The notes below the pieces were generated by a model. It saw only the letters and a list, made by a program, of their open reading frames with translations. It was not told the origin of the DNA and searched no databases. This document shows positions 33,542 to 53,137 of a stretch of 64,000 bases of DNA, piece by piece. The stretch is taken from assembly GCA_028692975.1 (NCBI GenBank), contig JAQUWF010000004.1:16677-80676 (forward strand), written 5' to 3'. The position numbers and the translations under genes were made by a program. Numbering within the stretch: position 1 is the stretch's first letter; the number at the start of each line of letters is the position of its first letter. The DNA comes from Lachnospiraceae bacterium. Its GTDB lineage: Bacteria > Bacillota > Clostridia > Lachnospirales > Lachnospiraceae.

Positions 33542-33601
33542 TCAGCATACAAGTAAAGGCCCAGTGGACATTTATCTTGTTGTATTTATCATAGCTGAGC
33601 T

Positions 33602-33663
33602 GAAAATATTACACTTATAACGAAATTAAATATGTTTTGTAAAAAGACAATCATATATATAAT
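33602..33663 (+). promoter_or_regulatory. promoter of GRE gene A with upstream box
   Basis: The box AAAATATTACACTTATAAC lies 47 bases (from ACACTT at 33611) before TATAAT (33658-33663). The same box stands at the same distance before GRE gene B. This fits an activator site near -60, for which the AraC-type response regulator at 43525 is the candidate. Confidence 0.65.
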
Positions 33664-33723: not shown

Positions 33724-35964
33724 ATGATAGTAAAGGATTCGTATCAAATCTCTACAGAACCCATAAGGACAAAACGCATAACAGAGCTATATAAAGAAAT
33801 TACAAATTCTGAATGCGGCGTATGCGCAGAAAGAGGAAAGCTGCTTACGGAGTATTATAGGAACCATACCGATGAAGTACCAATTGTAAAAAGAGCCAAA
33901 GCAATAGATTATGTCCTGCAGAATATGAGCATATATCTGCTGCCCGGGAGCTTATTTGCGGGAAACCAAGCATCGCATCCAAGATGGGCCCCCCTGTTTC
34001 CGGAATACGACATGGAATGGATCGAAGAGGAAATGATCAGAGAAATGCCGTATGCGCTAAACAAACGACCGGCGGATCGTTATATTTTAAGAGAAGAGGA
34101 TAAGCCGGTTATACAGGAAATCTGTGACTGGTGGAAGGGAAAGACCATTACAAGCATGCTGCGAACCAGACTGCCCAGGGAGGCATTAGCCACTCACTAT
34201 GACATAAAAGCGGCTGATATAGGGGCATACTTTCAGGGGGGTGACGGGCATTTTGCGCCGGATTACCCATGGCTGCTTCAGAACGGTATTCAGACGATCA
34301 TAGATCAATGTAATCAGAGGCGTGAAATGCTTGACTACAAGAATGATCCGGAATGTATAAAAAAGAAAGACTTTTATGATGCAGCTATTATCAGCGCCAA
34401 CGCAATCATAAAATTTGCGTCCAGGTATGCTGAGCTTGCGGAAGGGATGTCTGAAAATGAAAGTGATGAAATAAGAAAAAAAGAACTGCAGGATATTGCG
34501 TCCATGTGCCGCTATATACCGGGAAAAGCTCCGCGGAATTTTAAAGAGGCACTGCAGCTTTTGATTTTGGTACATATTTGTATACAAATAGAAGACAATG
34601 GTGCAGGGGTGTCTTTTGGCAGATACGATCAGTTCATGCAGCCTTTTTACAGGCAGGGAATAAAAGAAGGCACAATAACAAGAGAACAGGCAGTGGAAAT
34701 GACAGAAAATTTCTTCATTCAGATATATTGCTGCAATAAAGTGCGAAGCTGGACAGACACGGATTTCTTTAGAGGGGTACCAATGTTTCAGAATCTGACC
34801 ATTGGAGGAGTAGATCCGGAAACAATGGATGATGCAACAAATGATATGAGTTATATTACGCTGGATGCAACGTATAATACTAGGGTGCCGCAGCCCTCCT
34901 TAACGGTGCGTTTTCATAAAAAAACACCTCTGGAATTTAAGATGCGAACAGCCGAAGTTATACGTCTGGGTATGGGAATTCCCTCGATATTTAATGATGA
35001 AGTATACACCCGTGCTATGATGAACATCGGGTACGAAATGAAAGATGCATATAATTACTGCATCATTGGCTGTATTGAACCGGGTGTTCCTGGATTGCTG
35101 GGAGGACGTACCGGAGGCGCGTGGCTGAATTGCACAAAAGTATTGGAAATGACACTGTACAACGGCCGGGATCCAAGAACCGGAATCTGTCTCCGGAAAA
35201 ATAGTAATAATAAGGACTTAAGCACCTTTGAGAATTACCAGGAATTGGAAGAAGCTTTTTCTGATCAGATGAAATATTATATAAAGATAGAATCAATTTT
35301 AGAAAATACGATTGACCAGGTATGGGAGGAAATGACGGAGGAACCGATGGCTGCCATATTTGGCTGCCCCACTACGACAATTCCACGGGGAAAACCGATT
35401 AAACAGGGTGGAGCGAAATATGACCTGACCGGACAGCAGACCATAGGGACTGCCAACATTGCAAACAGTCTGTATGCGATAAAAAAACTGGTATTTGAAG
35501 ATAAGAAAATTACGGGAGCACAGCTATTACATGCACTAAAAGAAAACTGGAACGATGAAACTACCGTGCCAACAGCAAGACAGATTCAATCCATGTGTCT
35601 GTCTGTGGAAAAATACGGAAATGATTTTGATGAAGTAGACTTTATAGCGCGGGATATGATGGCGATGATTGCTGCTGAATTGTCTTCCTGTAAGAACACA
35701 AGATATGGAAAAGGGCCGATTGGAGGAACTTTGCATTGCTCCACAAGTACTGTATCCAGCAATACGCCTTTTGGAAAGGTGTGTGGTGCAACGCCGGATG
35801 GAAGGGAAGCGTTTATGCCGGTTGCGGATGGGCAGTCCCCGATGAGAGGAACTGATATGAATGGACCAACAGCCGCGATTGCCTCTGTTGCAAAACTCCA
35901 TAATGAGTTGTTTTCGTGTGGCTCCCTGTATAACATGAAGTTTTCTCCGGAAGAACTGGCATAA
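33724..35964 (+). CDS. split glycyl radical enzyme, catalytic subunit A (dehydratase class, no radical domain)
   Basis: A 746-residue pyruvate-formate-lyase-like barrel. The thiyl-radical cysteine is C450 followed by E452 in GCIEPG, the Cys-x-Glu pair of GRE dehydratases and other eliminases such as glycerol dehydratase and choline lyase. GDGHFAPDYP (H176) matches a conserved active-site loop, and PRGKPIKQGGAKYD is also family-typical. The protein ends at LYNMKFSPEELA, exactly where full-length family members go on into the glycyl radical domain; no RVxGY motif is present in any frame before the next gene. The radical domain is supplied by the gene at 38418. The ATG at 33724 follows GAAAGGAG and aligns with paralogue B. 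The reaction is probably radical dehydration of a polyol or sugar derivative in the cytoplasm. Confidence 0.9.
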   Translation: MIVKDSYQISTEPIRTKRITELYKEITNSECGVCAERGKLLTEYYRNHTDEVPIVKRAKAIDYVLQNMSIYLLPGSLFAGNQASHPRWAPLFPEYDMEWIEEEMIREMPYALNKRPADRYILREEDKPVIQEICDWWKGKTITSMLRTRLPREALATHYDIKAADIGAYFQGGDGHFAPDYPWLLQNGIQTIIDQCNQRREMLDYKNDPECIKKKDFYDAAIISANAIIKFASRYAELAEGMSENESDEIRKKELQDIASMCRYIPGKAPRNFKEALQLLILVHICIQIEDNGAGVSFGRYDQFMQPFYRQGIKEGTITREQAVEMTENFFIQIYCCNKVRSWTDTDFFRGVPMFQNLTIGGVDPETMDDATNDMSYITLDATYNTRVPQPSLTVRFHKKTPLEFKMRTAEVIRLGMGIPSIFNDEVYTRAMMNIGYEMKDAYNYCIIGCIEPGVPGLLGGRTGGAWLNCTKVLEMTLYNGRDPRTGICLRKNSNNKDLSTFENYQELEEAFSDQMKYYIKIESILENTIDQVWEEMTEEPMAAIFGCPTTTIPRGKPIKQGGAKYDLTGQQTIGTANIANSLYAIKKLVFEDKKITGAQLLHALKENWNDETTVPTARQIQSMCLSVEKYGNDFDEVDFIARDMMAMIAAELSSCKNTRYGKGPIGGTLHCSTSTVSSNTPFGKVCGATPDGREAFMPVADGQSPMRGTDMNGPTAAIASVAKLHNELFSCGSLYNMKFSPEELA

Positions 35965-35979
35965 TAAAAACAGTACCTT

Positions 35980-36040
35980 AAAATATTACACTTTTAACAA
36001 AATATTATAGGTTTTTAAAAAAATACACAATAGTTATAAT
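35980..36040 (+). promoter_or_regulatory. promoter of GRE gene B with upstream box
   Basis: AAAATATTACACTTTTAAC (from 35980) lies before TATAAT (36035-36040). The distance from ACACTT (35988) to the -10 box is 47 bases, identical to the promoter of GRE gene A. Confidence 0.65.
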
Positions 36041-36091
36041 GTAAATAACTTAAAAATTGACGGAATGAATAAATAAAAAAGGAGAAATGCT

Positions 36092-38332
36092 ATGATTGTA
36101 AAGGATTCTTATCAAATTTCAACAGAACCGGTCAGAACAGAAAGAGTTGATAAGCTTCATAAGTATATTACTTCATCAAAGTATGGCGTTTGCGTTGAAA
36201 GAGGAAAACTGATCACGGAATACTATAGTAATCATACGGATGAAGCCCCGATTGTGCGCAGAGCCAATGCAATCGACTATGTACTTCAAAATATGAGTAT
36301 CTATATTTTGCCGGGAAGTCTTTTTGCGGGTAACCAGACCTCACATCCAAGATGGGCGCCAATTTTTCCAGAGTACGAGGTGGAATGGGTTGAAAAGGAA
36401 ATGATACACGAAGATCCATATCCGTTAGGAGAACGCCCGGCGGATCGGTACATATTAAGAGAGGAAGATAAGCCGGTTATTCAGAAAATGTGTGATTGGT
36501 GGAAGGGAAAAACAATTACAGATATGCTGAGGACCCGTCTTCCCAAGGAAGCTCTGGCTACACATTATGATTTAAAGGCTGCAGACATTGGCACCTATTT
36601 TCAGGGAGGGGATGGACATTTTGCACCAGATCATCCCTGGCTGATAAAAAATGGAGTTCAGACCATCATTGATCAGTGCAGGGAAGGACTTGAAAAAATC
36701 GATTATAAAAATGATCCTGACTGTATCAAAAAGAAAGACTTCTATGAAGCGGCAATCATAAGTGCCAATGCAATCATTAAATTTGCTGCCAGATATGCAG
36801 ATTTGGCAGAAGAGATGGCGGCGGAAGAAAAAGATGAGACAAGAAAATCCGAATTAACAGATATGGCAGATATCTGCCGCCATGTTCCAAGATATCCGGC
36901 ACGGAACTTTAAAGAAGCGCTGCAGTTTATTATACTGACTCACATCTGTATTCAGATTGAAGACAGCGGCGCAGGGGTTTCTTTTGGAAGATATGATCAG
37001 TTTATGCAGCCGTATTATGAAGAGGGAATCAAAAATGGAACATTGACAAAAGAACTTGCGACTGAATTGACAGAAAATTTCTTTCTTCAGATATATACCT
37101 GCAATAAAGTACGAAGCTGGATTGATACAGATTTCTATCGCGGAGTACCTATGTTCCAGAACTTAACGATTGGCGGTGTTGATCCGGAGACAATGGACGA
37201 TGCAACAAATGATATGAGCTATATTGCATTGGATGCTACCTATAATACCAGAGTTCCGCAGCCGTCACTGACCGTGCGTTTTCATAAGAAAACCCCAATG
37301 GAATTTAAAATGCGTGTTGCAGAGGTAGTTCGGTTAGGTACAGGGCTTCCGTCTATTTTCAATGATGAAACCTATACCCGCGCGATGATGAATCGGGGTT
37401 ATCAGATGAAGGATGCGTACAATTACTGCATCATTGGCTGCATCGAACCGGGAGCACCCGGACTTTTGGGAGGACGTACCGGCGGAGCATGGTTGAATTG
37501 TACAAAAGCACTGGAGATGTCTTTGTATAATGGAAAAGATCCGCGAACCGGCATTTGTTTACATGAAAACGAAAATGGAAAAACGCTGGCAGAATTTGAA
37601 AATTACGAAGAAGCAGAAGAAGCATTTGCGGATCAAATGAAATACTATATCAGGATGGAAGCTATCCTTGAAAATACGATTGATCAGGTTTGGGAAGAAA
37701 TGCTGGAAGAGCCAATGGCAGCAATATTCGGATGTCCCACAACCACAATTCCGAGAGGAAAGCCGATCAAACAGGGTGGTGCAAAATACGATCTTACTGG
37801 TCAGCAGACAATTGGTACGGCTAATATCGCAAACAGCCTGTATGTACTTAAAAAACTTGTGTACGAGGATAAAACCATTACCGGAGCACAGCTGCAGCAT
37901 GCATTGGAAACAAACTGGCAGGATGAAACTACAACGCCTACGGGACCACAGATTAAGGCTATGTGTATGGCAGTACCAAAGTATGGAAATGATATAGACG
38001 AGGTGGATTTTATTGCCCGGGATATGATGGCTATGATTGCAGGAGAGTTATCCTCTTATAAGAACACCAGATATGGAAGAGGACCAATTGGAGGAACACT
38101 GCATTGTTCAACAAGTACAGTTTCCAGCAATACTCCATTTGGACATGTATGCGGAGCAACACCGGATGGACGGGATGCATATATGTCAGTAGCGGATGGA
38201 CAGTCCCCAATGAGAGGAACTGATGTAAATGGTCCCACTGCAGCAATCGCATCTGTGGCAAAACTACATAATGAGCTGTTTTCATGCGGATCACTGTATA
38301 ACATGAAATTCAGCCCGGAAGAATTATCGTAA
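36092..38332 (+). CDS. split glycyl radical enzyme, catalytic subunit B (dehydratase class, no radical domain)
   Basis: A 746-residue paralogue of subunit A, alignable without large gaps and with most residues identical. C450 and E452 lie in GCIEPG, and the H176 loop GDGHFAPDHP is kept. It too ends at LYNMKFSPEELS with a stop at the same place. The small radical-domain gene begins 85 bases downstream in a different frame, so this is not simple read-through. AAAAGGAG precedes the ATG. Differences cluster in surface helices and a few pocket-proximal segments (CIEPGVPG versus CIEPGAPG), so the two may take related substrates or form a heterodimer. Both need an activated radical partner. Confidence 0.9.
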   Translation: MIVKDSYQISTEPVRTERVDKLHKYITSSKYGVCVERGKLITEYYSNHTDEAPIVRRANAIDYVLQNMSIYILPGSLFAGNQTSHPRWAPIFPEYEVEWVEKEMIHEDPYPLGERPADRYILREEDKPVIQKMCDWWKGKTITDMLRTRLPKEALATHYDLKAADIGTYFQGGDGHFAPDHPWLIKNGVQTIIDQCREGLEKIDYKNDPDCIKKKDFYEAAIISANAIIKFAARYADLAEEMAAEEKDETRKSELTDMADICRHVPRYPARNFKEALQFIILTHICIQIEDSGAGVSFGRYDQFMQPYYEEGIKNGTLTKELATELTENFFLQIYTCNKVRSWIDTDFYRGVPMFQNLTIGGVDPETMDDATNDMSYIALDATYNTRVPQPSLTVRFHKKTPMEFKMRVAEVVRLGTGLPSIFNDETYTRAMMNRGYQMKDAYNYCIIGCIEPGAPGLLGGRTGGAWLNCTKALEMSLYNGKDPRTGICLHENENGKTLAEFENYEEAEEAFADQMKYYIRMEAILENTIDQVWEEMLEEPMAAIFGCPTTTIPRGKPIKQGGAKYDLTGQQTIGTANIANSLYVLKKLVYEDKTITGAQLQHALETNWQDETTTPTGPQIKAMCMAVPKYGNDIDEVDFIARDMMAMIAGELSSYKNTRYGRGPIGGTLHCSTSTVSSNTPFGHVCGATPDGRDAYMSVADGQSPMRGTDVNGPTAAIASVAKLHNELFSCGSLYNMKFSPEELS

Positions 38333-38345
38333 GGAAACAGGAAGC

Positions 38346-38395
38346 AGGCAGCGCCGGCTCATTTGTGATCAGCAAATTTGGAATGGGACGAGGCT
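38346..38395 (+). promoter_or_regulatory. diverged copy of the repeated hairpin leader element
   Basis: GGCTCATTTG, CAGCAAATTTGGAATGGG and GAGGCTGC echo the element; ATTTG/CAAAT and GCAGC/GCTGC can pair. It lies between GRE subunit B and the AAGGAGGA ribosome site of the radical-domain gene. Confidence 0.5.
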
Positions 38396-38417
38396 GCGGA
38401 AGAAGGAGGAAAATCAT

Positions 38418-38672
38418 ATGGAAAATGTTGTGCGTGTGAATAAGAATGATGGACTTAGAAGGTTTGTGAGTATTATTGATCAGTATTTTGCTATGGGAGG
38501 CAATCAGATACAGTTTAATGTAGTGAGTAAAAAAACACTTTTGGAGGCACAGAAGAATCCGGATAAATACGCAAATCTGCTGGTTCGGGTTGCTGGCTAC
38601 AGTGCTTATTTTACACAACTGTCAAAGGACGTACAGGAAGACATTATTGCAAGAACTGAGGAAAAACTATAA
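38418..38672 (+). CDS. stand-alone glycyl radical domain subunit of the split GRE
   Basis: An 84-residue protein that is the missing C-terminus of the two GRE subunits. It contains GLRRFVSIIDQYFAMGGNQ, then QFNVVSKKTLLEAQ, and the glycyl radical motif LLVRVAGYSAYF with G60 as the radical site, ending in LSKDVQEDIIARTEEK. All of these are normally fused behind NMKFSP in family members. 746 plus 84 residues gives 830, within the usual size of full-length dehydratases. It has its own AAGGAGGA site and ATG. One copy appears to serve two catalytic subunits. E. coli YfiD/GrcA is a precedent for a free radical domain, but it repairs a complete PFL rather than completing a split enzyme. Confidence 0.92.
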   Translation: MENVVRVNKNDGLRRFVSIIDQYFAMGGNQIQFNVVSKKTLLEAQKNPDKYANLLVRVAGYSAYFTQLSKDVQEDIIARTEEKL

Positions 38673-38757: not shown

Positions 38758-39891
38758 ATGAAGACAAATTGGAAAATGATGAGCGGTGCAGTGGCGGCAG
38801 CGGCAATGGTTATGTCAATGTGTACAGTGGTAGGAGCAGAGGAAAATTATGAGTCGGCGGAATTGTCCATTGACTACGCTCAGGCAGTCGATCCGGCGGG
38901 AGCGGATATTGTGGACAACGCATTTTCCGTTACACCAGAAGAAGCCAGTGCACTGGCCACACAGATGATCGGCACCCAGAATCAGTTTGAAGGCATGAGT
39001 ATTGGTTTTTCACAGCATCGTATTGCCGGATCTGAGTGGTATGAACAGCTTGTAGATTTTGCCCAGGCGGAAGCGGATTACCTGGGGATTGAACTGACTG
39101 TGTATGATGCAAACGATGATTTGAATAAACAGATTTCGGATGTTGAGACGCTGATCAATCTGGGAATGGATTCTATCATAGTCAATCCATATAATTCTGC
39201 GAACGTTGGCCTTGATGAGATTGCAGCAGCGGGAATTCCTTTGACTGTTGTTAACCAGGCGGTTGATTTTAATGGCCAGTTTACATTTGTATCAGCGGAT
39301 GTGCAAAATTCAGGATATAAGTCAGGGTATGAATTGGCACGTTATTATGACGAAAAAAATGGCTGGCAGGATGAAGTAAAAGCTTTTGTATTGTCTTCAG
39401 CACCTCAGGAAAAAGAGTCTGATCTGCGCAGATGGGGGCAGGTTATGGGATGGACCGATTATATGCTGGATAAATACGGTAAAAACAATCTGAATATTGT
39501 AGCTTATCAGTATTATCAGTGGCTGCCGGAACCGGCGATGAATGCTACACTTGATGTTCTCCAGGCTGAGCCGGACATTGATATTATCTTTGCAGCCTGC
39601 GATGGCGGAGCACAGGGGGTTGAAGCAGCACTGGAACAGGTCGATAAATTAGGAGATATCCTTATCTGCTCTATTGATGGACGTAAATCCGTGCTTGAAT
39701 GGATCAAGGATGGGGACAAAGGTATGGTTTGTGATGCATTTAATGATCCGAGACAGATGGGGAAATGGGCTGTATATATGGCAGCACTGCAGGCAAATGG
39801 TGTGTCTACACCGACAACATACTATGTAATGAATGATCTGGTAACAATTGACAATGTTGATACGTATTACGATGAAAATTCTACATACTAA
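38758..39891 (+). CDS. CUT2 sugar ABC transporter substrate-binding protein of the GRE locus
   Basis: A 377-residue Peripla_BP_4 protein. Its signal peptide ends VVGA before EENYES, with no usable lipobox. About 60 extra residues (AQAVDPAGADIVDNAFSVTP and a following helix) precede the fold, which starts MSIGFSQHRIAGSEWYEQL. Ligand-region motifs are VNPYNSANVGLDE and ACDGGAQGVEAALEQ. GGGGAAAAGG precedes the ATG. It sits between the radical-domain gene and the ATPase, so its ligand is probably the GRE substrate or a precursor. The N-terminal extension is longer than in the other binding proteins here. Confidence 0.9.
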   Translation: MKTNWKMMSGAVAAAAMVMSMCTVVGAEENYESAELSIDYAQAVDPAGADIVDNAFSVTPEEASALATQMIGTQNQFEGMSIGFSQHRIAGSEWYEQLVDFAQAEADYLGIELTVYDANDDLNKQISDVETLINLGMDSIIVNPYNSANVGLDEIAAAGIPLTVVNQAVDFNGQFTFVSADVQNSGYKSGYELARYYDEKNGWQDEVKAFVLSSAPQEKESDLRRWGQVMGWTDYMLDKYGKNNLNIVAYQYYQWLPEPAMNATLDVLQAEPDIDIIFAACDGGAQGVEAALEQVDKLGDILICSIDGRKSVLEWIKDGDKGMVCDAFNDPRQMGKWAVYMAALQANGVSTPTTYYVMNDLVTIDNVDTYYDENSTY

Positions 39892-39972: not shown

Positions 39973-41484
39973 ATGGCGAATGAATACGCGGTGGAAATGA
40001 AAGAAATTACAAAACGGTTTGGCGGACTCACTGCAGTGAAAGATGTAAATTTTCAGGTGAAGCCAGGTGAGATCCATGCTTTATGCGGAGAAAATGGTGC
40101 CGGAAAAAGTACGTTAATGAATGTGCTTACAGGAAAATTTCCTCCCAATTCCGGAGAAATTCTTCTGCGGGGAGAAAAAACCAGAATTAATAATCCAAAG
40201 GATGCCAGAAAAGAGAAAATAACAATAGTTCATCAGGAGCTGGAACTGATTCCGGATCTTAGCATTGCAGAAAATATTTTTTTAGGAAATCAGCCAGTGA
40301 CGGCAGCGGGAGTGGATTGGAAACAAATGTATGCAGAGGCTGAAAAAATACTTCTGAAATTCTCGCTCAGCATGAACGTCAGGACAAAAATTAAATATTT
40401 GACAGTGGGACAGCAGCAGCTTGTAGAAATCGCAAAAGCAATTTATCTGGGGGGAAACGTATTAATACTGGATGAACCGACGGCACCTCTTACTGGACGG
40501 GAAATCGATTTTTTGCTGGATATGCTTGCTAAATTAAAAGAAACAAATATTTCCATTATATATATCACCCATCGCCTGGAAGAAGTTTTCCGGATTGCGG
40601 ACAGAGCATCTGTCATGAGAGATGGTAAAATGATTGATACTTTCGATGTGAAGAGTATAACAGTGGGAGAACTGGTGGCTGCGATGGTTGGACGGAAAAT
40701 GGAGAATATGTATCCGCAGATCGAAACAAAAGCGGGAGAAGTTACGCTGGAGATAGAGGATTATTCCGTACCTCATTCCCTGTATTCCACCAATATCGTG
40801 GATAATGCATCTATGAAATTCCATGCGGGTGAGATTGTGGGCATTTCAGGACTGCTGGGCGCAGGCAGAACAGAATTGATGTCAGCAGTCATCGGGGCTT
40901 ATAAAACAAAGGGCAGCGGAACGATTAAGCTGAATGGAAAAGAGGTAAAGTTTGGCTCTCCTTCGGAGGCTATCAGATCAGGAATTGGATATGTAACGGA
41001 AGACAGAAAAACAACGGGACTGATTTTGAATCAGGCAATCCGTTTTAATATATCAATGGCTTCGCTGTCGAGAATTATCAAAGCAGGAATACTTTCTCCC
41101 AAAAAGGAAAAGGAAATAGTCAGTGAATTAAAAAATAGTTTGACAATTAAGACAGATAATATTGAAAATCCGGTAAGCAGTCTGAGCGGTGGAAACCAGC
41201 AGAAAGTTGTATTGGCAAAATGGCTTGCAACGCAGCCTGAAATATTGATATTGGATGAGCCGACCAGAGGTGTGGATGTAGGCGCCAGATATGAAATTTA
41301 TACTATAATAAAAGAACTGGCAAAGCAGGGAAGTACAATAATTATGATATCCTCAGATCTGTCAGAAATTATCGGTATGAGTGATCGGGTTTATACAATG
41401 TATGAAGGCAGGGTACGAGGGGAATTATCAAAAAAAGAAATGAACGAAGATTCCATTATGCGTTATATTACGGGAATCGCTTAG
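39973..41484 (+). CDS. CUT2 sugar ABC transporter ATP-binding protein (two NBDs)
   Basis: A 503-residue RbsA-type double ATPase. NBD1: GENGAGKST, IVHQELELIPDL, LILDEPTAPLT, ITHRLEE. NBD2: GLLGAGRTELM, LSGGNQQKVVLAKWL, LILDEPTRGVDVGA. AGGTGGTG precedes the ATG. It energises the transporter encoded within the GRE locus. The degenerate paralogue at 46203 has the same domain plan, so this intact protein is the natural comparison. Confidence 0.92.
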   Translation: MANEYAVEMKEITKRFGGLTAVKDVNFQVKPGEIHALCGENGAGKSTLMNVLTGKFPPNSGEILLRGEKTRINNPKDARKEKITIVHQELELIPDLSIAENIFLGNQPVTAAGVDWKQMYAEAEKILLKFSLSMNVRTKIKYLTVGQQQLVEIAKAIYLGGNVLILDEPTAPLTGREIDFLLDMLAKLKETNISIIYITHRLEEVFRIADRASVMRDGKMIDTFDVKSITVGELVAAMVGRKMENMYPQIETKAGEVTLEIEDYSVPHSLYSTNIVDNASMKFHAGEIVGISGLLGAGRTELMSAVIGAYKTKGSGTIKLNGKEVKFGSPSEAIRSGIGYVTEDRKTTGLILNQAIRFNISMASLSRIIKAGILSPKKEKEIVSELKNSLTIKTDNIENPVSSLSGGNQQKVVLAKWLATQPEILILDEPTRGVDVGARYEIYTIIKELAKQGSTIIMISSDLSEIIGMSDRVYTMYEGRVRGELSKKEMNEDSIMRYITGIA

Positions 41485-41496
41485 GAGGGTATAATC

Positions 41497-42447
41497 ATGG
41501 GAAATATAAAAGTACAAAATGAAAAACTGAAAAAAATCACAGACTTTGCCTTATCAAATTTTGTAATTATCGCATTCATAGTGTTGTTTATTGCAAGCTG
41601 TTTTTTATCTCCCGCATTCTTAACCATCAATAATATAAAATCAGTTCTGATACAGAATTCGATCTATGCGATTTGTGCCATTGGAATGCTGATGATTATT
41701 ATCACGGGCGGTATTGATTTATCCACGGGTTCTTACGTGTGTATCATAGTATGCCTTACAGCAGGACTGATTCAGAAGGGGAACGGCATATTATCCATTG
41801 TAATTGTGCTCTTACTGGCATTTGGTATCGGTGCGGTATCCGGAAGCATGGTTGCCTGTTTAAATATTGCTCCATTTATTGCCACACTGGCAATGACCAC
41901 TATTCTAAAAGGTGCAGCATACATGTACCAGACAGGACAGAGCCGGAGAATTGACGGAACATTTTTGCCGAACTGGGTGAAAAGCTCAACGTTTGGAATT
42001 CCGAATCCCGTTTCAGTGATGATTGTTGTATTTCTTGTCTTTTTGTTTATTTTAAACCGTACCAGGTATGGACGAAGCATCTACGCAATCGGAGGCAATA
42101 AGGAAACAGCATATCTGGCAGGTATTCCGGTAAAGAGATATCTTATACTTACATATGCGCTTGGAGGTTTATGCTTTGCAATCGGCGGAGTACTGCTCTG
42201 CGGACGTCTTGGAATGGGAACGGCAACGGTTGGCGACGGGTACGAAATGGATGCGATTGCTTCTGTAGTTATCGGAGGAGCATCCATGAGCGGAGGCTCC
42301 GGAAGTGTAGTAAAGACAATAGTTGGAGCAATGCTGATGGGGGTTCTGTATAATATCATGAACTTGATGGGAATCGCATCCTATCCACAGATGATATTAA
42401 AAGGTGTGGTAATTGTACTTGCGGTATTATTATATAAGGCAAAATAG
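41497..42447 (+). CDS. CUT2 sugar ABC transporter permease of the GRE locus
   Basis: A 316-residue RbsC-family membrane protein with IITGGIDLSTGSYVCI and SVVIGGASMSGGSGS signatures. AGGAGGG precedes the ATG, 12 bases after the ATPase stop. The activase gene follows within 22 bases, showing that uptake and radical chemistry are on one transcript. Confidence 0.92.
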   Translation: MGNIKVQNEKLKKITDFALSNFVIIAFIVLFIASCFLSPAFLTINNIKSVLIQNSIYAICAIGMLMIIITGGIDLSTGSYVCIIVCLTAGLIQKGNGILSIVIVLLLAFGIGAVSGSMVACLNIAPFIATLAMTTILKGAAYMYQTGQSRRIDGTFLPNWVKSSTFGIPNPVSVMIVVFLVFLFILNRTRYGRSIYAIGGNKETAYLAGIPVKRYLILTYALGGLCFAIGGVLLCGRLGMGTATVGDGYEMDAIASVVIGGASMSGGSGSVVKTIVGAMLMGVLYNIMNLMGIASYPQMILKGVVIVLAVLLYKAK

Positions 42448-42469: not shown

Positions 42470-43441
42470 ATGATCCGAGAAGAATTATTAAAGAGTAATA
42501 TAGATACACTGCTGCTGCAGGAGGGCTGCAGCGCAAACATTGAAAGATATGCAATCAATGATGGCAGCGGAGTCCGCACTACGGTTTTTTTGAAAGGATG
42601 TCATCTTCGCTGCAGGTGGTGCAGCAACCCCGAAACACAGAAATTTTATCCTGAAATGAATTTCTTTCCGGATAAATGTATTGCCTGTATGAACTGCGTT
42701 CATAATTGTCCTTATGGAGCAATAGGAAAGGATTTAATCGCTGATCGGGAAAAGTGTAAGGAGTGTTACAAAAAGGAAGATGCCTTTGCCTGTACAAAAA
42801 AATGTTATGTAAATTGCAGGAAGGTGACTGGGGACAAGCTGACAGTTAAACAAATCTATGATATAGTGAAAAGAGATGTACCTTTTTATGAAGCATCAGG
42901 AGGCGGCGTTACAATATCAGGAGGAGAGCCTCTGGCACAGCCTGAATTCACATATGCCCTGCTGAGGACGCTTACGGAACGCTGGATCAACACCGCTATT
43001 GAGACCTGCGGGTTTGCCGAAAAAGAGGGTTATGAAAATATTGTCCCCTATCTGGATACTATTTTCATGGATATCAAGCAAATGGACAGTGCGAAGCACC
43101 GGGCCTGGACTGGACAGGGAAACGAAAAAATCCTCGAAAATATCAAACGGGTGAATGATCTGGTACCTGTATATGGAAATAATTTATTTATACGGATACC
43201 AATCATTCCCGGCTTCAACGATCAGCCGGACGAAGTAGAGGCGACTGCCCGTTTTGTTGCGAAAGAGTGCAAAAATGTGAAGGGAATGGAACTTTTACCA
43301 TACCATAAATTAGGAAGAGGAAAATACTATAGCCTGGGAAGAAAATACGAATTAGAGGAACTGGTATCGCCTGCATCTGAAAAAATGTATGAATTGAATG
43401 AAATATTAGCAGGATATGACATTCCAATATTCAAGTTCTGA
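42470..43441 (+). CDS. glycyl radical enzyme activating enzyme (radical SAM)
   Basis: A 323-residue radical-SAM activase that abstracts hydrogen from the GRE glycine. The SAM-cluster motif is CHLRCRWC (C44, C48, C51). An inserted ferredoxin-like domain has CIACMNCVHNC (C70, C73, C76, C80) and a second set around C96, C99, C108 and C112, as in activases of the dehydratase class, unlike short PFL activase. GGGVTISGGEPLAQ is the SAM-binding motif. AAGGAGA precedes the ATG at 42470. Its natural target here is G60 of the 84-residue subunit. Confidence 0.93.
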   Translation: MIREELLKSNIDTLLLQEGCSANIERYAINDGSGVRTTVFLKGCHLRCRWCSNPETQKFYPEMNFFPDKCIACMNCVHNCPYGAIGKDLIADREKCKECYKKEDAFACTKKCYVNCRKVTGDKLTVKQIYDIVKRDVPFYEASGGGVTISGGEPLAQPEFTYALLRTLTERWINTAIETCGFAEKEGYENIVPYLDTIFMDIKQMDSAKHRAWTGQGNEKILENIKRVNDLVPVYGNNLFIRIPIIPGFNDQPDEVEATARFVAKECKNVKGMELLPYHKLGRGKYYSLGRKYELEELVSPASEKMYELNEILAGYDIPIFKF

Positions 43442-45152: not shown

Positions 45153-46193
45153 GTGAAAAAACAAACAATATCATCTTTTTTATCTGCAGCGATGACAGTG
45201 ATCTGCATCTTTTTAGGCCTGGATTTATTCCTGATCTGTTATTTTATAGTAAATGATACAAACCTTGTGATCGTAATTCTTACAATTATGAAATGTATCG
45301 TTGAAATAATATTGCTTTTGATAAACTGGCGGCGGATCAGGCCATCGATTTCCAGTCTGCGAAAACAGTATTCGAAATTTTCAAGTGGAAAAACGATTGT
45401 TTTGGAAACAAACCCGAAAACTTATATGTTTTTGGCAGAAGAAGTAAAACTGATTAACAGAGTAAATGAGCTGGTTAACAGAAAGCAGCTTCTCCATGAG
45501 ACAAATAAGCAGGCGGAATATCTGGCACTGCAAAATCAGATCAATCCTCATTTTTTATACAACACATTAGAGGCTATGCGCGGGGATGCAATTATAAATA
45601 AAATGTATCCTCTTGCAAATGTAGCGAAGGCACTGTCCACTTATTTCAGATACACGATTTCTAATATGCAGTTTTTGGTGCCGGTTGAAGATGAACTGGA
45701 GAATATTACAAATTATTTTCTGGTTCAGAAATACCGCTTTGGTGAAAGACTGAAAATGGAAGTGCATTTTCTGGATAATGAAGAGGAAATTCGGAAATTA
45801 CTGATTCCAAAACTCACATTACAGCCAATTGTAGAAAATAGTGTTTATCATGGTTTGGAGAAAATGGTGGATAGAGGTACGATTTCTTTGACGTTTGATC
45901 AGACAGAATCAAATCTGCTGATCAGTATCAAAGATTCGGGCACAGGAATGGATGAAAATACACTCTCAAAGCTGAATAACTCTTTGAATGATACACCATT
46001 TAAATCAAACGAAAACGACGGCAGATTTTCAGACAAAACAAATCATTCCGGAATTGCATTGAAAAATGTGTCCAGAAGAATTAAGTTATTTTTTGGTGAT
46101 AAATATGGAATTTATGTTTACAGTACACAAAATGTCGGGACAAACGTAAAAATCACTTTACCACGGCAGGAATTAAATAAGACAGAAGTCTAG
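45153..46193 (+). CDS. YesM-like sensor histidine kinase lacking an extracellular sensor domain
   Basis: A 346-residue membrane kinase, about 240 residues shorter than the kinase at 55725. Two transmembrane helices (about residues 10-32 and 37-58) are joined by only a few residues (NDTNLV). A short cytoplasmic linker leads to the His_kinase domain with H133 in NQINPHFLYNTLE. The ATPase domain has PIVENSVYHGLEK and SGTGMDENTL. There is no room for a ligand-binding domain outside, so the signal probably comes through the membrane or from a partner protein. The start is GTG at 45153 after AGGGGAG. The next gene, 9 bases on, is the degenerate ABC ATPase. Confidence 0.88.
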   Translation: MKKQTISSFLSAAMTVICIFLGLDLFLICYFIVNDTNLVIVILTIMKCIVEIILLLINWRRIRPSISSLRKQYSKFSSGKTIVLETNPKTYMFLAEEVKLINRVNELVNRKQLLHETNKQAEYLALQNQINPHFLYNTLEAMRGDAIINKMYPLANVAKALSTYFRYTISNMQFLVPVEDELENITNYFLVQKYRFGERLKMEVHFLDNEEEIRKLLIPKLTLQPIVENSVYHGLEKMVDRGTISLTFDQTESNLLISIKDSGTGMDENTLSKLNNSLNDTPFKSNENDGRFSDKTNHSGIALKNVSRRIKLFFGDKYGIYVYSTQNVGTNVKITLPRQELNKTEV

Positions 46194-46202
46194 GGCAAAT
46201 TC

Positions 46203-47651
46203 ATGAAAAAGGAAATAATGAGAATTAAAAATGGTATAGTACAGCAGGGAAGATTAATAAGAGGCCCGTATTTTCTACGCTTTTTTGAGGGAGAGATGAG
46301 CGGAATTATAGTAGATGCATCTTCGGAGATAGAGATATTAGAAAATCTATTTCGATGTAAAAATTCATTAATAGAAGGTGAGTTTTTCTATAAAGAGAAA
46401 AAAATTGAGTTGGAACCGAAGAACAGAGCAGTCAAAAAGTTGATTTCCCGAAAAGTATCTGTCATTTCCATATCATCACACTTGATTGACGCTCTATCAA
46501 TCATTGATAATTTATTTATTCCGGAGTATTTACTGAAGAGCAAAAAGTATAAAAAAATAGCTGCGGGTTTGATGGAGTTTTTTGATTTGGATATTTCGCT
46601 AAATAAAAAAGTACAGGATCTGACTTTTATACAGCGGCTGCAGATTGAGCTGCTGCATGCAGTCGCAGCTCATCACAGACTGATCATCGTATCCAATGTA
46701 AATGGAAAGCTGCAGATGGAAGAACGTCAGGAACTGGAGCAGTTGTATAGCCGCATGACCCGCATCGGGTATTCTATCTGCCAGATAGAATCACTGAAAA
46801 ATATTTCTTTGGATAAGCTGGATTATGTACAGATCATTGATAAAGGAAAATGCATTGAAGAATTAAGCCGCCCCGAAATCGACTATTCCGAAATCAGCCG
46901 TCTGGTAAACAGAAATGATGATGCGGAAAAATACTCAGAACTGGAAAAATATAAAAATACGAAACTGTATTCGGATTTAAAAAGCTCTGCTTTGGAACTA
47001 AACAGTCTGTGTTATGGGCAATTAAAAAGTATTACCCTGAACGTCCTGCGAGGGGATATAATAAAAATCAACTGTAAGGACAGCAGCAGCTTCCGGGATT
47101 TAAAAGAGATATTAACAGGAAAAGCGCCGGGAGCGGCCGGACAGATCTTATATTACGGTATTCCAATAAAAAACCAGAAATATAAAAGAAAAATAACAAA
47201 ACATGAAATTGCATGTGTGGACTATTCAAAAAACGAACAGCTGATGTTTGAAAATCTGACGATCATAGAGAACGTCAGTTATCCGCTGTGTCTGAGAAAA
47301 TCGGATTTTTTCCTTCATAAAAGATATATAAAAGCAGTGGAAAGCTATATTAAAATGATAACTCCGGATTTAAACCTGAATAAAAAGGTCAAATATTTGT
47401 CAAAAGAGCAGATTATGCGGCTGGTATTATGTAAATGGGTATTATGTAAGCCAAAGCTGCTGCTGATTTTTATTCCGTCTGTTTTGACAAAGGATGGTCC
47501 TGATTTTATTATGGATCGTATCATTCTTGAATTAAACAAATATGGAATACCAATCATAATAGTATCGGAGCATTCTGACTATAAGACAGAGGTAACAGAG
47601 AAAAGCTATGTCCTGAAAGAAGGAATATTGTGCCGGAACTTTCAGGAGTAA
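46203..47651 (+). CDS. degenerate two-domain ABC ATPase (RbsA-like pseudo-ATPase)
   Basis: A 482-residue protein with the length and domain order of the CUT2 ATPases but without catalytic motifs. Where NBD1 should have GENGAGKST it reads VDASSEIEILE. The signature position is QDLTFIQRLQIELLHA, and Walker B is LIIVSNVNGKLQ, lacking aspartate-glutamate. NBD2 shows DIIKINCKDSSSFRD, then KYLSKEQIMRLVLCKWVL, an echo of the LSGGNQQKVVLAKWL helix. LLLIFIPSVLTKDGPD replaces LILDEPTRGVDVGA. The frame is intact over its whole length, so it is probably a working protein. As it is coupled to a sensorless kinase, it may dock on the permease and report transport status. That is a hypothesis. Confidence 0.75.
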   Translation: MKKEIMRIKNGIVQQGRLIRGPYFLRFFEGEMSGIIVDASSEIEILENLFRCKNSLIEGEFFYKEKKIELEPKNRAVKKLISRKVSVISISSHLIDALSIIDNLFIPEYLLKSKKYKKIAAGLMEFFDLDISLNKKVQDLTFIQRLQIELLHAVAAHHRLIIVSNVNGKLQMEERQELEQLYSRMTRIGYSICQIESLKNISLDKLDYVQIIDKGKCIEELSRPEIDYSEISRLVNRNDDAEKYSELEKYKNTKLYSDLKSSALELNSLCYGQLKSITLNVLRGDIIKINCKDSSSFRDLKEILTGKAPGAAGQILYYGIPIKNQKYKRKITKHEIACVDYSKNEQLMFENLTIIENVSYPLCLRKSDFFLHKRYIKAVESYIKMITPDLNLNKKVKYLSKEQIMRLVLCKWVLCKPKLLLIFIPSVLTKDGPDFIMDRIILELNKYGIPIIIVSEHSDYKTEVTEKSYVLKEGILCRNFQE

Positions 47652-51442: not shown

Positions 51443-53137
51443 TTACAATTTTTTAACCTTCACAAGGCATTCTTTCCGGTAAAAACATACTCCATAGCTT
51501 ATAATATTCCGATACCCTTCCAGCCTCAATTCTTTTGCGTAGTCTTGCTCTTTTATCTGCTGCAGGGCATCCGCACAGCCAGCGGCCATCTGCTCAAATC
51601 TTTTGGCAATTTTATATTCCATGATAATGGCGCAGCCCTGAACGGAAGGTGTCTTCATGATCAGATCAGGCCTGCCATTTCCGCTTTCCCGATTGGATTT
51701 TACGATATATCCGGGGCAGCCTTTCAACAGGCCGGCAAGAAAGCCGTGATAATAATTTTCGGCGAAGTCAAAAAAACTGATGGTCTCACCCAATTCTTCT
51801 GTAACCTTCCGGCTAAAGGTATCGGTATCCATTGTGGTGACGGCATGATACAGGGAAGAAAGATTACGGGTTTTCAGGGTTTCGTTAAACCAGTTTAGAA
51901 TGGTATTGCGGTAAATATATTTAATTTCTGCATTTGGTATTTTCAAGGTCAGATAAATCATATCTCCATCAAAACGTTTTGAAGTCATTTTAAGATATCC
52001 GGTGAAGAACAGAAAATTCCAGAGGTTATCCTGGGATTTATGAATATCTTCATAAGTAATATCTTCGTGTACCGGTTTCTCAATTGCATTGTCTTCGATG
52101 AGAAGTTCAATTTCCTGTTTTGCAGCGGGATCCGCTCTGTCAATCAGCTCCCGGACGATGCTGTTGGAGGAGGTGTTGGACCAATATGGTTTTGGAAAAG
52201 AAATCGTATTTGTGACGGCCTCTTTTACGTAATTTAAGACACTCCAGGGATTGTATACTTCTATATTTCCGAAAAGATATCCATCATACCAGTGCCGCAC
52301 TTCCTCCTTTTTTTCTAAAATCTGGTAAAACTGCAGCAGCTGTTCGACTTCTGCCTGTACAAACCCAAAATATTCAGCATAATTCTGATTCAGGACAGAA
52401 AATATTTCCAGGTTATTTAATCCGGTAAAAATGGATTCTTTGCTGATACGCAGACATCCGGTAATTACGGAAAACTCCAAACTGTCATTTGTTTTTAAGG
52501 CAGACTCAAACAGAGAACGGATAAAATCAATCATTTGTCCGTAGAATCCTCTGAAATAGGAGCTTTCTAAAGGCACGTCGTATTCATCAATCAAAATGAT
52601 CACTTTCTTATGATGATACATTTCCAGGCAGTGGGAAAGAAATTCCAGAGACTTTGCATAATCAATTCCATCGGCACGCCGTTCCCAGATTTTAGTGAAT
52701 TTTACGCGGTCTGCGGACGGAAGAACTTCCTTTTGCAAGATATACGAATGGCGGCCGAATTCCTTGGAAATTTCATCAATCAGGCTGGCGTAGGCCATTT
52801 CAAAATCAGGCTGTCTGGCAGATTTTAAGGAGAGAGAAATAACGGGGTACTGGCAAAATTCATTTCGGTAATATTCACCCGCAGTAAAAATATGCTTTCC
52901 TTCAAAATAGTGCTGATTGTTTATTTCGCTGCCATCCGGATTGAACTCCTGCTCAAAGTAGGTTTTGATCATGCTGAGAGCGAGTGTTTTTCCAAAACGC
53001 CGGGGCCTGGTAATCAGGTTTACCTTTCCCTGATTATCCAGAAGATTTTTTATAAGCAGGGTTTTATCCACATAATAGTATTTTTTATCAATAAGCTCTT
53101 TGTAGTTATCAATACCAATGGCTAACGGCATCTTCAT
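51443..53137 (-). CDS. AAA-ATPase-like / PD-(D/E)XK nuclease-like fusion protein
   Basis: A 564-residue protein of the family common in gut Bacteroidetes and Clostridia (AAA-ATPase-like N-terminus, PF09820-type, and PD-(D/E)XK C-terminus, DUF1703-type). It starts LAIGIDNYKELIDKKYYYVD. The P-loop is RPRRFGKTLALSM, Walker B is VIILIDEYDVPL, and ITGCLRISKESIFTGLNN follows. The nuclease core near the C-terminus is GRPDLIMK and IIMEYKIAKR (D, E, K). Its function is not established; roles in defence or mobility have been guessed. The promoter shares 22 of 24 bases with that of the Rpn gene at 5373. The start is at the ATG at 53137. Confidence 0.88.
   Translation of the reverse strand: MKMPLAIGIDNYKELIDKKYYYVDKTLLIKNLLDNQGKVNLITRPRRFGKTLALSMIKTYFEQEFNPDGSEINNQHYFEGKHIFTAGEYYRNEFCQYPVISLSLKSARQPDFEMAYASLIDEISKEFGRHSYILQKEVLPSADRVKFTKIWERRADGIDYAKSLEFLSHCLEMYHHKKVIILIDEYDVPLESSYFRGFYGQMIDFIRSLFESALKTNDSLEFSVITGCLRISKESIFTGLNNLEIFSVLNQNYAEYFGFVQAEVEQLLQFYQILEKKEEVRHWYDGYLFGNIEVYNPWSVLNYVKEAVTNTISFPKPYWSNTSSNSIVRELIDRADPAAKQEIELLIEDNAIEKPVHEDITYEDIHKSQDNLWNFLFFTGYLKMTSKRFDGDMIYLTLKIPNAEIKYIYRNTILNWFNETLKTRNLSSLYHAVTTMDTDTFSRKVTEELGETISFFDFAENYYHGFLAGLLKGCPGYIVKSNRESGNGRPDLIMKTPSVQGCAIIMEYKIAKRFEQMAAGCADALQQIKEQDYAKELRLEGYRNIISYGVCFYRKECLVKVKKL

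Follow-up and report, generated by a model that had tools for sequence, protein, structure and literature searches.

In the characterised glycyl radical enzymes (GREs) known to us, radical domain and catalytic core belong to one chain. It has long been asked how this domain, which is buried, can swing out and reach the activase. Accessory subunits are known from 4-hydroxyphenylacetate decarboxylase and benzylsuccinate synthase, and these are unrelated to the radical domain protein. Here we describe a locus in a 64,000-nucleotide stretch of a Lachnospiraceae genome (contig JAQUWF010000004.1; the whole stretch is called the window below) that distributes what is normally a single-protein enzyme over two large catalytic proteins, cores A and B, and one small radical protein. 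It is useful to compare this arrangement with the closest described systems. In fold, the nearest are the B12-independent glycerol and 1,2-propanediol dehydratases (PDB 1r8w, 5i2a, 9rco), which have the Cys-x-Glu motif and the equivalent of His176 in common with the cores, but they are single chains and have other substrate residues. YbiW, the 1,5-anhydroglucitol-6-phosphate lyase (8id7), is also one chain, and no phosphosugar importer was seen at the window locus. The decarboxylase and benzylsuccinate synthase resemble it in having more than one polypeptide, but their large chain still includes its radical domain: the small protein has matches in 2y8n and 4pkc. YfiD/GrcA (6owr) is a stand-alone Gly_radical protein that the window small protein matches with an E value of 1.4e-10. 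Its partner, however, is an intact pyruvate formate-lyase (PFL), whereas the partner gene of the window type never encodes the radical domain, and the approximately 60-residue disordered N-terminus of YfiD is absent from the window small protein. PMC6325248 concerns an N-terminal extension of CutC. In the literature searched, mostly without subscription journals, we found no account of a split GRE.

The coordinates and anatomy given by a first-pass annotation of this DNA were confirmed: two 746-residue cores, 81.9% identical to each other, end at equivalent residues (LYNMKFSPEELA in A and LYNMKFSPEELS in B), and an 84-residue gene carrying RVAGY (G60) follows. As first annotated, the small gene is out of frame with B and has its own ribosome site; it starts 85 nt after the stop of B at an offset of 1, with GGAGG eight bases 5' of the ATG. 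The Pfam model Gly_radical (106 positions) is matched over positions 1-46 in each core and 43-106 in the small protein, and alignments to full-length NCBIfam GRE models break off in the cores and restart one to three positions on in the small protein (for example 743 then 744 of 821, or 745/746 then 748 of 824). The PFL-like catalytic barrel domain of the GRE superfamily is present in the cores, while the RVxGY radical domain, which in that superfamily lies on the core's own chain, is here a separate gene. The structure model of core B has a mean predicted local distance difference test score (pLDDT) of 86.5 and a predicted template modelling score of 0.89, and the ratio of non-synonymous to synonymous substitution rates of the small gene is 0.01-0.04 in the 4 pairs compared.

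The split is conserved in relatives. A protein search with core B scored 7997 candidates, of which 1509 passed as matches; among the best 120 of the 1509, 110 lack the RVxGY radical domain and 10 (51-58% identity) have it. The close homologues are thus not single full-length GREs, which the first-pass annotation had named as the sign of a local lesion: RVxGY is absent from all of the top 91. The 110 homologues without the domain are mostly 730-776 aa long (102 proteins, the other 8 being shorter), and at least a few of them are fragments (e.g. P0182, P0191, P0232). The corresponding search with the small protein used a length filter that bars fused proteins; the best 120 of its 1370 matches are 74-101 aa long, some perhaps being contig-end fragments, and 119 have RVxGY. 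Such relatives can be common, as one cluster named for Blautia wexlerae represents 1000 contigs. A scan of genome contigs with two short peptide patterns found 48 loci (L numbers below), 15 fused and 33 not fused. At L010, L011, L021 and L048 the contig ends before the radical gene could be tested; the L010 genome has a matching small gene less than 300 nt from the end of another contig. At 29 out of 29 testable public loci, and in the window, a stand-alone radical gene adjoins the truncated core, which bears out the earlier view of a real split rather than a frameshift. These 29 loci are partly dependent (L014 and L024 belong to one species, L015 and L053 to one genome), only the end of the core is visible in L049 and L055, and in L023 and L025 the small gene is cut off where the contig stops. 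The analysis does not extend to loci L102-L105.

We consider it probable that A, B and the stand-alone radical domain assemble into a two-part GRE that performs radical C-O cleavage. The small protein would dock into either A or B and so make an exchangeable component of what is otherwise a fixed part of the enzyme. The activase encoded downstream would put the radical on Gly60 of the small protein, the radical would pass from there to Cys450, and the enzyme would then begin to break a C-O bond in a sugar or polyol, likely an imported one, by radical chemistry. A radical domain that is naturally a separate chain also lets the swing-out question be tested by mixing purified parts.

Neither core has lost Cys450, Glu452 or His176, and Cys450 is invariant in a 50-row alignment. 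We take the Cys-x-Glu motif, His164, His281, Asp447 and Tyr640 of 1r8w to have catalytic or substrate roles in glycerol dehydratase. The equivalents of Cys-x-Glu and His164 are present in the split cores (Cys450, Glu452, His176), but the substrate residues are not kept, as His281 and Asp447 are replaced by Ala294 and Gly464, and Tyr640 corresponds to Ser675; the enzyme is therefore likely to be a C-O lyase that acts on a different sugar or polyol. The C450/E452 motif that the first-pass annotation had seen thus stands in both cores, and its label of dehydratase is a suggestion drawn from motif and fold. The cut-offs of the NCBIfam GRE equivalogs (CutC, HypD, HpfG, HpsG, PflD and others) were missed, with a best score of 496 of 1000 bits, and the cores score 605 and 583 of 678 bits with subfamily TIGR01774, although such whole-protein scores are lowered because the radical domain is missing. 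The substrate, a sugar or polyol, is likely imported by the adjacent ATP-binding cassette (ABC) transporter, but is named by none of Pfam, NCBIfam, PDB alignments and neighbouring genes. Upstream of both Moorella loci there are genes for glucokinase, phosphoglucose/mannose isomerase, a 1-phosphofructokinase-like protein and ketose-bisphosphate aldolase. The fused relative L030 (7153-17373) has a sulfonate-binding-protein-like gene, an aldolase and an FGGY kinase nearby, possibly a sulfosugar setting, with a sulfoquinovose isomerase match below the cut-off (272 of 700 bits). These settings are not conserved and we draw no substrate conclusion from them.

The first-pass annotation also held that one radical subunit serves two catalytic partners. 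Gene content agrees with this in the window and at two public loci, L008 from Diplocloster agilis and L012, the only ones seen with tandem cores and one radical gene (82%, 92% and 92% identity between the paired cores, the upstream cores being truncated too), but most of the loci seen have one core per radical gene. Going by gene content, both window cores may use the one radical subunit. Some observations weigh against the two-part enzyme as proposed. Firstly, the model of the small protein has a low pLDDT, for which a shallow alignment of 31 close rows may be the cause. Secondly, core A departs from 304 conserved columns 12 times and core B 3 times; in a leave-one-out count, A is exceeded by two of the other 36 rows. 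Thirdly, core and radical domain distances correlate at 0.84-0.90, which is no higher than the correlation of core and activase (0.88-0.89), so this mirror-tree comparison gives no specific sign of interaction. Since A is more diverged than B, it may be specialised or weak, and one can picture B alone as catalytic, A as its regulatory or structural partner in an A/B heterodimer, and the small protein as serving one core. The longer branch of A on the core tree (0.23 vs 0.055) and the single core at most loci fit this picture as well. However, A retains Cys450, Glu452, His176 and the other checked site residues except T168A, a variable position, and it is constrained (proportions of synonymous and non-synonymous differences 0.79 and 0.11, synonymous divergence being saturated), and we regard a non-catalytic A as unlikely. 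We speculate, tentatively, that the two-part enzyme belongs to a GRE family in which the radical domain is a detachable and replaceable protein cofactor: one activase would charge one small subunit that is exchanged between two different cores, oxygen damage would be undone by swapping a 9-kDa piece and not the whole enzyme, and splits would have had several origins, in PFL too.

A further possibility is a YfiD/GrcA-like role, in which the small protein serves as a spare part for intact GREs that oxygen has cleaved, and the truncated cores do something else. According to PMC8683613, YfiD replaces the damaged end of intact PFL, and such parts have also been suggested for other GREs; PMC12288474 describes F. 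nucleatum as being without an autonomous cofactor homologue. The window genome, a draft in 180 contigs, has four full-length GREs, and some relatives of the small protein are publicly named 'autonomous glycyl radical cofactor GrcA'. Against this, the truncated core is the sole PFL-like core found in 4 of the 7 genomes searched (Moorella stamsii, M. thermoacetica, and metagenome-assembled genomes of a Verrucomicrobiota and a Halanaerobiales member; completeness not stated), which argues that the small protein has a role beyond that of a YfiD-type spare part. In 30 of 30 testable cases a truncated core precedes the small gene, the window small protein scores far under the cut-offs of GrcA (48.5/170 bits), GrcA2 (50.7/145) and GrcA3 (72.1/158), and in a weakly resolved radical-domain tree (63 rows, 76 columns) it clusters with its own core lineage and not with PFL. 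A pure repair role is thus improbable, although the window's host may use the small protein for repair as well. The split enzyme also suggests that obligate subunits, not repair parts, are among the small proteins now catalogued as GrcA or 'glycine radical domain-containing protein'.

The first-pass annotation took YfiD/GrcA to be the nearest precedent, but a closer one turned up in the genomes of L010, L018, L008 and L013, which also hold the window-type system. There, a PFL-type core in an open frame of 682-718 aa precedes a radical gene of about 80 aa, and next comes an activase-like gene. The likeness to the window lies in the core without radical domain, the separate radical gene and the activase gene; the differences lie in the PFL subfamily, the two-Cys PFL core and the separate lineage. 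Both split-PFL small proteins scanned pass the GrcA3 cut-off (NF038360; 169.9 and 158.9 against 158 bits), and one split-PFL core scanned passes that of PFL (TIGR01255, 1109 bits). In these four genomes PFL is split separately from the window-type GRE. We found no paper on split PFL. A further GrcA3-like small gene is present at L079, with no core within the 9 kb read. The PFL chains in PDB closest to the split PFL core, 38la_A (687 aa) and 38lb_A (739 aa), have no radical-domain match at E 0.001; they may be natural split PFLs or truncated constructs.

The junctions bear on whether programmed frameshifting or stop read-through makes one continuous chain of B and the radical domain. With small-gene starts chosen as the nearest ATG, core and small gene share a reading frame at 15 of the 30 junctions (29 loci and the window), which speaks for such a chain. 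The other 15 are out of frame, the spacers vary from 6 to 153 nt and all three stops are used (TAA 11, TAG 8, TGA 11), which argues against either mechanism, as does the small gene's own ribosome site in the window, and we give a fused product very little credence. A sequencing or assembly error or a local lesion, imaginable in a draft genome, is rejected as practically negligible, since both paralogues stop at the same residue and homologues in isolates and metagenome-assembled genomes of several phyla have the same break.

For the core tree, 166 rows were thinned by similarity to 78, 9 were dropped (fragments, near-duplicates and one unsure row) and core B was added back to give 70 rows. On this quick LG+G4 tree, for which the program warned of long outgroup branches and on which length alone decided whether a database protein counted as split or fused, at least 4 changes of the split/fused label are required. 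Group 1, which includes the window, has 37 rows, all split (support 100). Group 2 has 15 split rows (support 83) and one fused member, L037 of Clostridium symbiosum, and L028 (Halanaerobiales) is a separate split beside the fused L030. With fused proteins as the outgroup, the direction of change would be read most simply as three splits and one re-fusion. Fused relatives have a short linker at the junction, e.g. KFSPNDIKGSEGLQRL in L026. The fused GRE of L037 (9914-12445), nested among split ones, also has a short linker (PQDLSEDAGLNRL) and is a candidate natural re-fusion. In the radical-domain tree the small proteins are grouped largely by core lineage, and genome G1073 (L015, L053) holds both groups, each with its matching small protein. 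Split GREs of groups 1 and 2 are found in the same gene neighbourhood in two Moorella (L020, L033) and in two Bacillus species (L032, L054), as if swapped one for the other, and this common neighbourhood suggests one function. The distribution is patchy, covering Bacillota, Spirochaetota and Verrucomicrobiota. Counting the window's own genome each time, 7 of 397 family genomes have relatives of at least 53% identity (two of these cut at contig ends), 3 of 398 phylum genomes have truncated ones, and an order-wide search at E 1e-200 found only the window genome among 295.

Table 1. Positions of the split GRE genes, their neighbours and upstream elements in the window, and of the split PFL loci.
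Feature	Position	Strand	Remarks
GRE catalytic core A	33724..35964	+	746 aa; stops before radical domain; Cys450, Glu452, His176
GRE catalytic core B	36092..38332	+	746 aa; stops at residue equivalent to that of A; Cys450, Glu452, His176
Stand-alone glycyl radical domain	38418..38672	+	84 aa; RVAGY with Gly60
Sugar-type ABC substrate-binding protein (Peripla_BP_4)	38758..39891	+	Pfam match; conserved neighbour
ABC transporter ATPase	39973..41484	+	conserved neighbour
ABC transporter permease (BPD_transp_2)	41497..42447	+	conserved neighbour
Radical S-adenosylmethionine GRE activase	42470..43441	+	TIGR02494, 341 bits (cut-off 174)
Response regulator with AraC-type helix-turn-helix	43507..45138	+	neighbour of group-1 cores
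Sensor histidine kinase	45153..46193	+	neighbour
Degenerate ABC-ATPase-like protein	46203..47651	+	seen only beside group-1 cores
Upstream element of A	33600..33663	+	ends in TATAAT; possible promoter
Upstream element of B	35977..36040	+	direct repeat of the element of A
Split PFL loci	L074:4108-6729, L075:2440-5166, L076:4422-6886, L077:4579-6994

The genes of the split enzyme are linked to those of the activase and the ABC importer, the importer genes being conserved neighbours (Table 1). The degenerate ABC-ATPase-like product, conserved beside group-1 cores, has 482 aa and only a weak ABC_tran match (32 bits). The upstream elements of A and B form a 64-nt direct repeat (73% identical), and each core may therefore have its own promoter; a promoter scan found no excess (15 sites vs 14.3 expected). 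The shared element was seen in 5 of the 25 stretches examined; it lies before A and before B in the window, in L008 before 10001, in L009 (9957-10081) and in L010 after 12241. Its position in L009, ahead of the small gene, looks like the trace of a second core that was lost. Elsewhere in the window, positions 51443-53137 on the minus strand encode an AAA-ATPase-like protein with a PDDEXK_9 nuclease domain.
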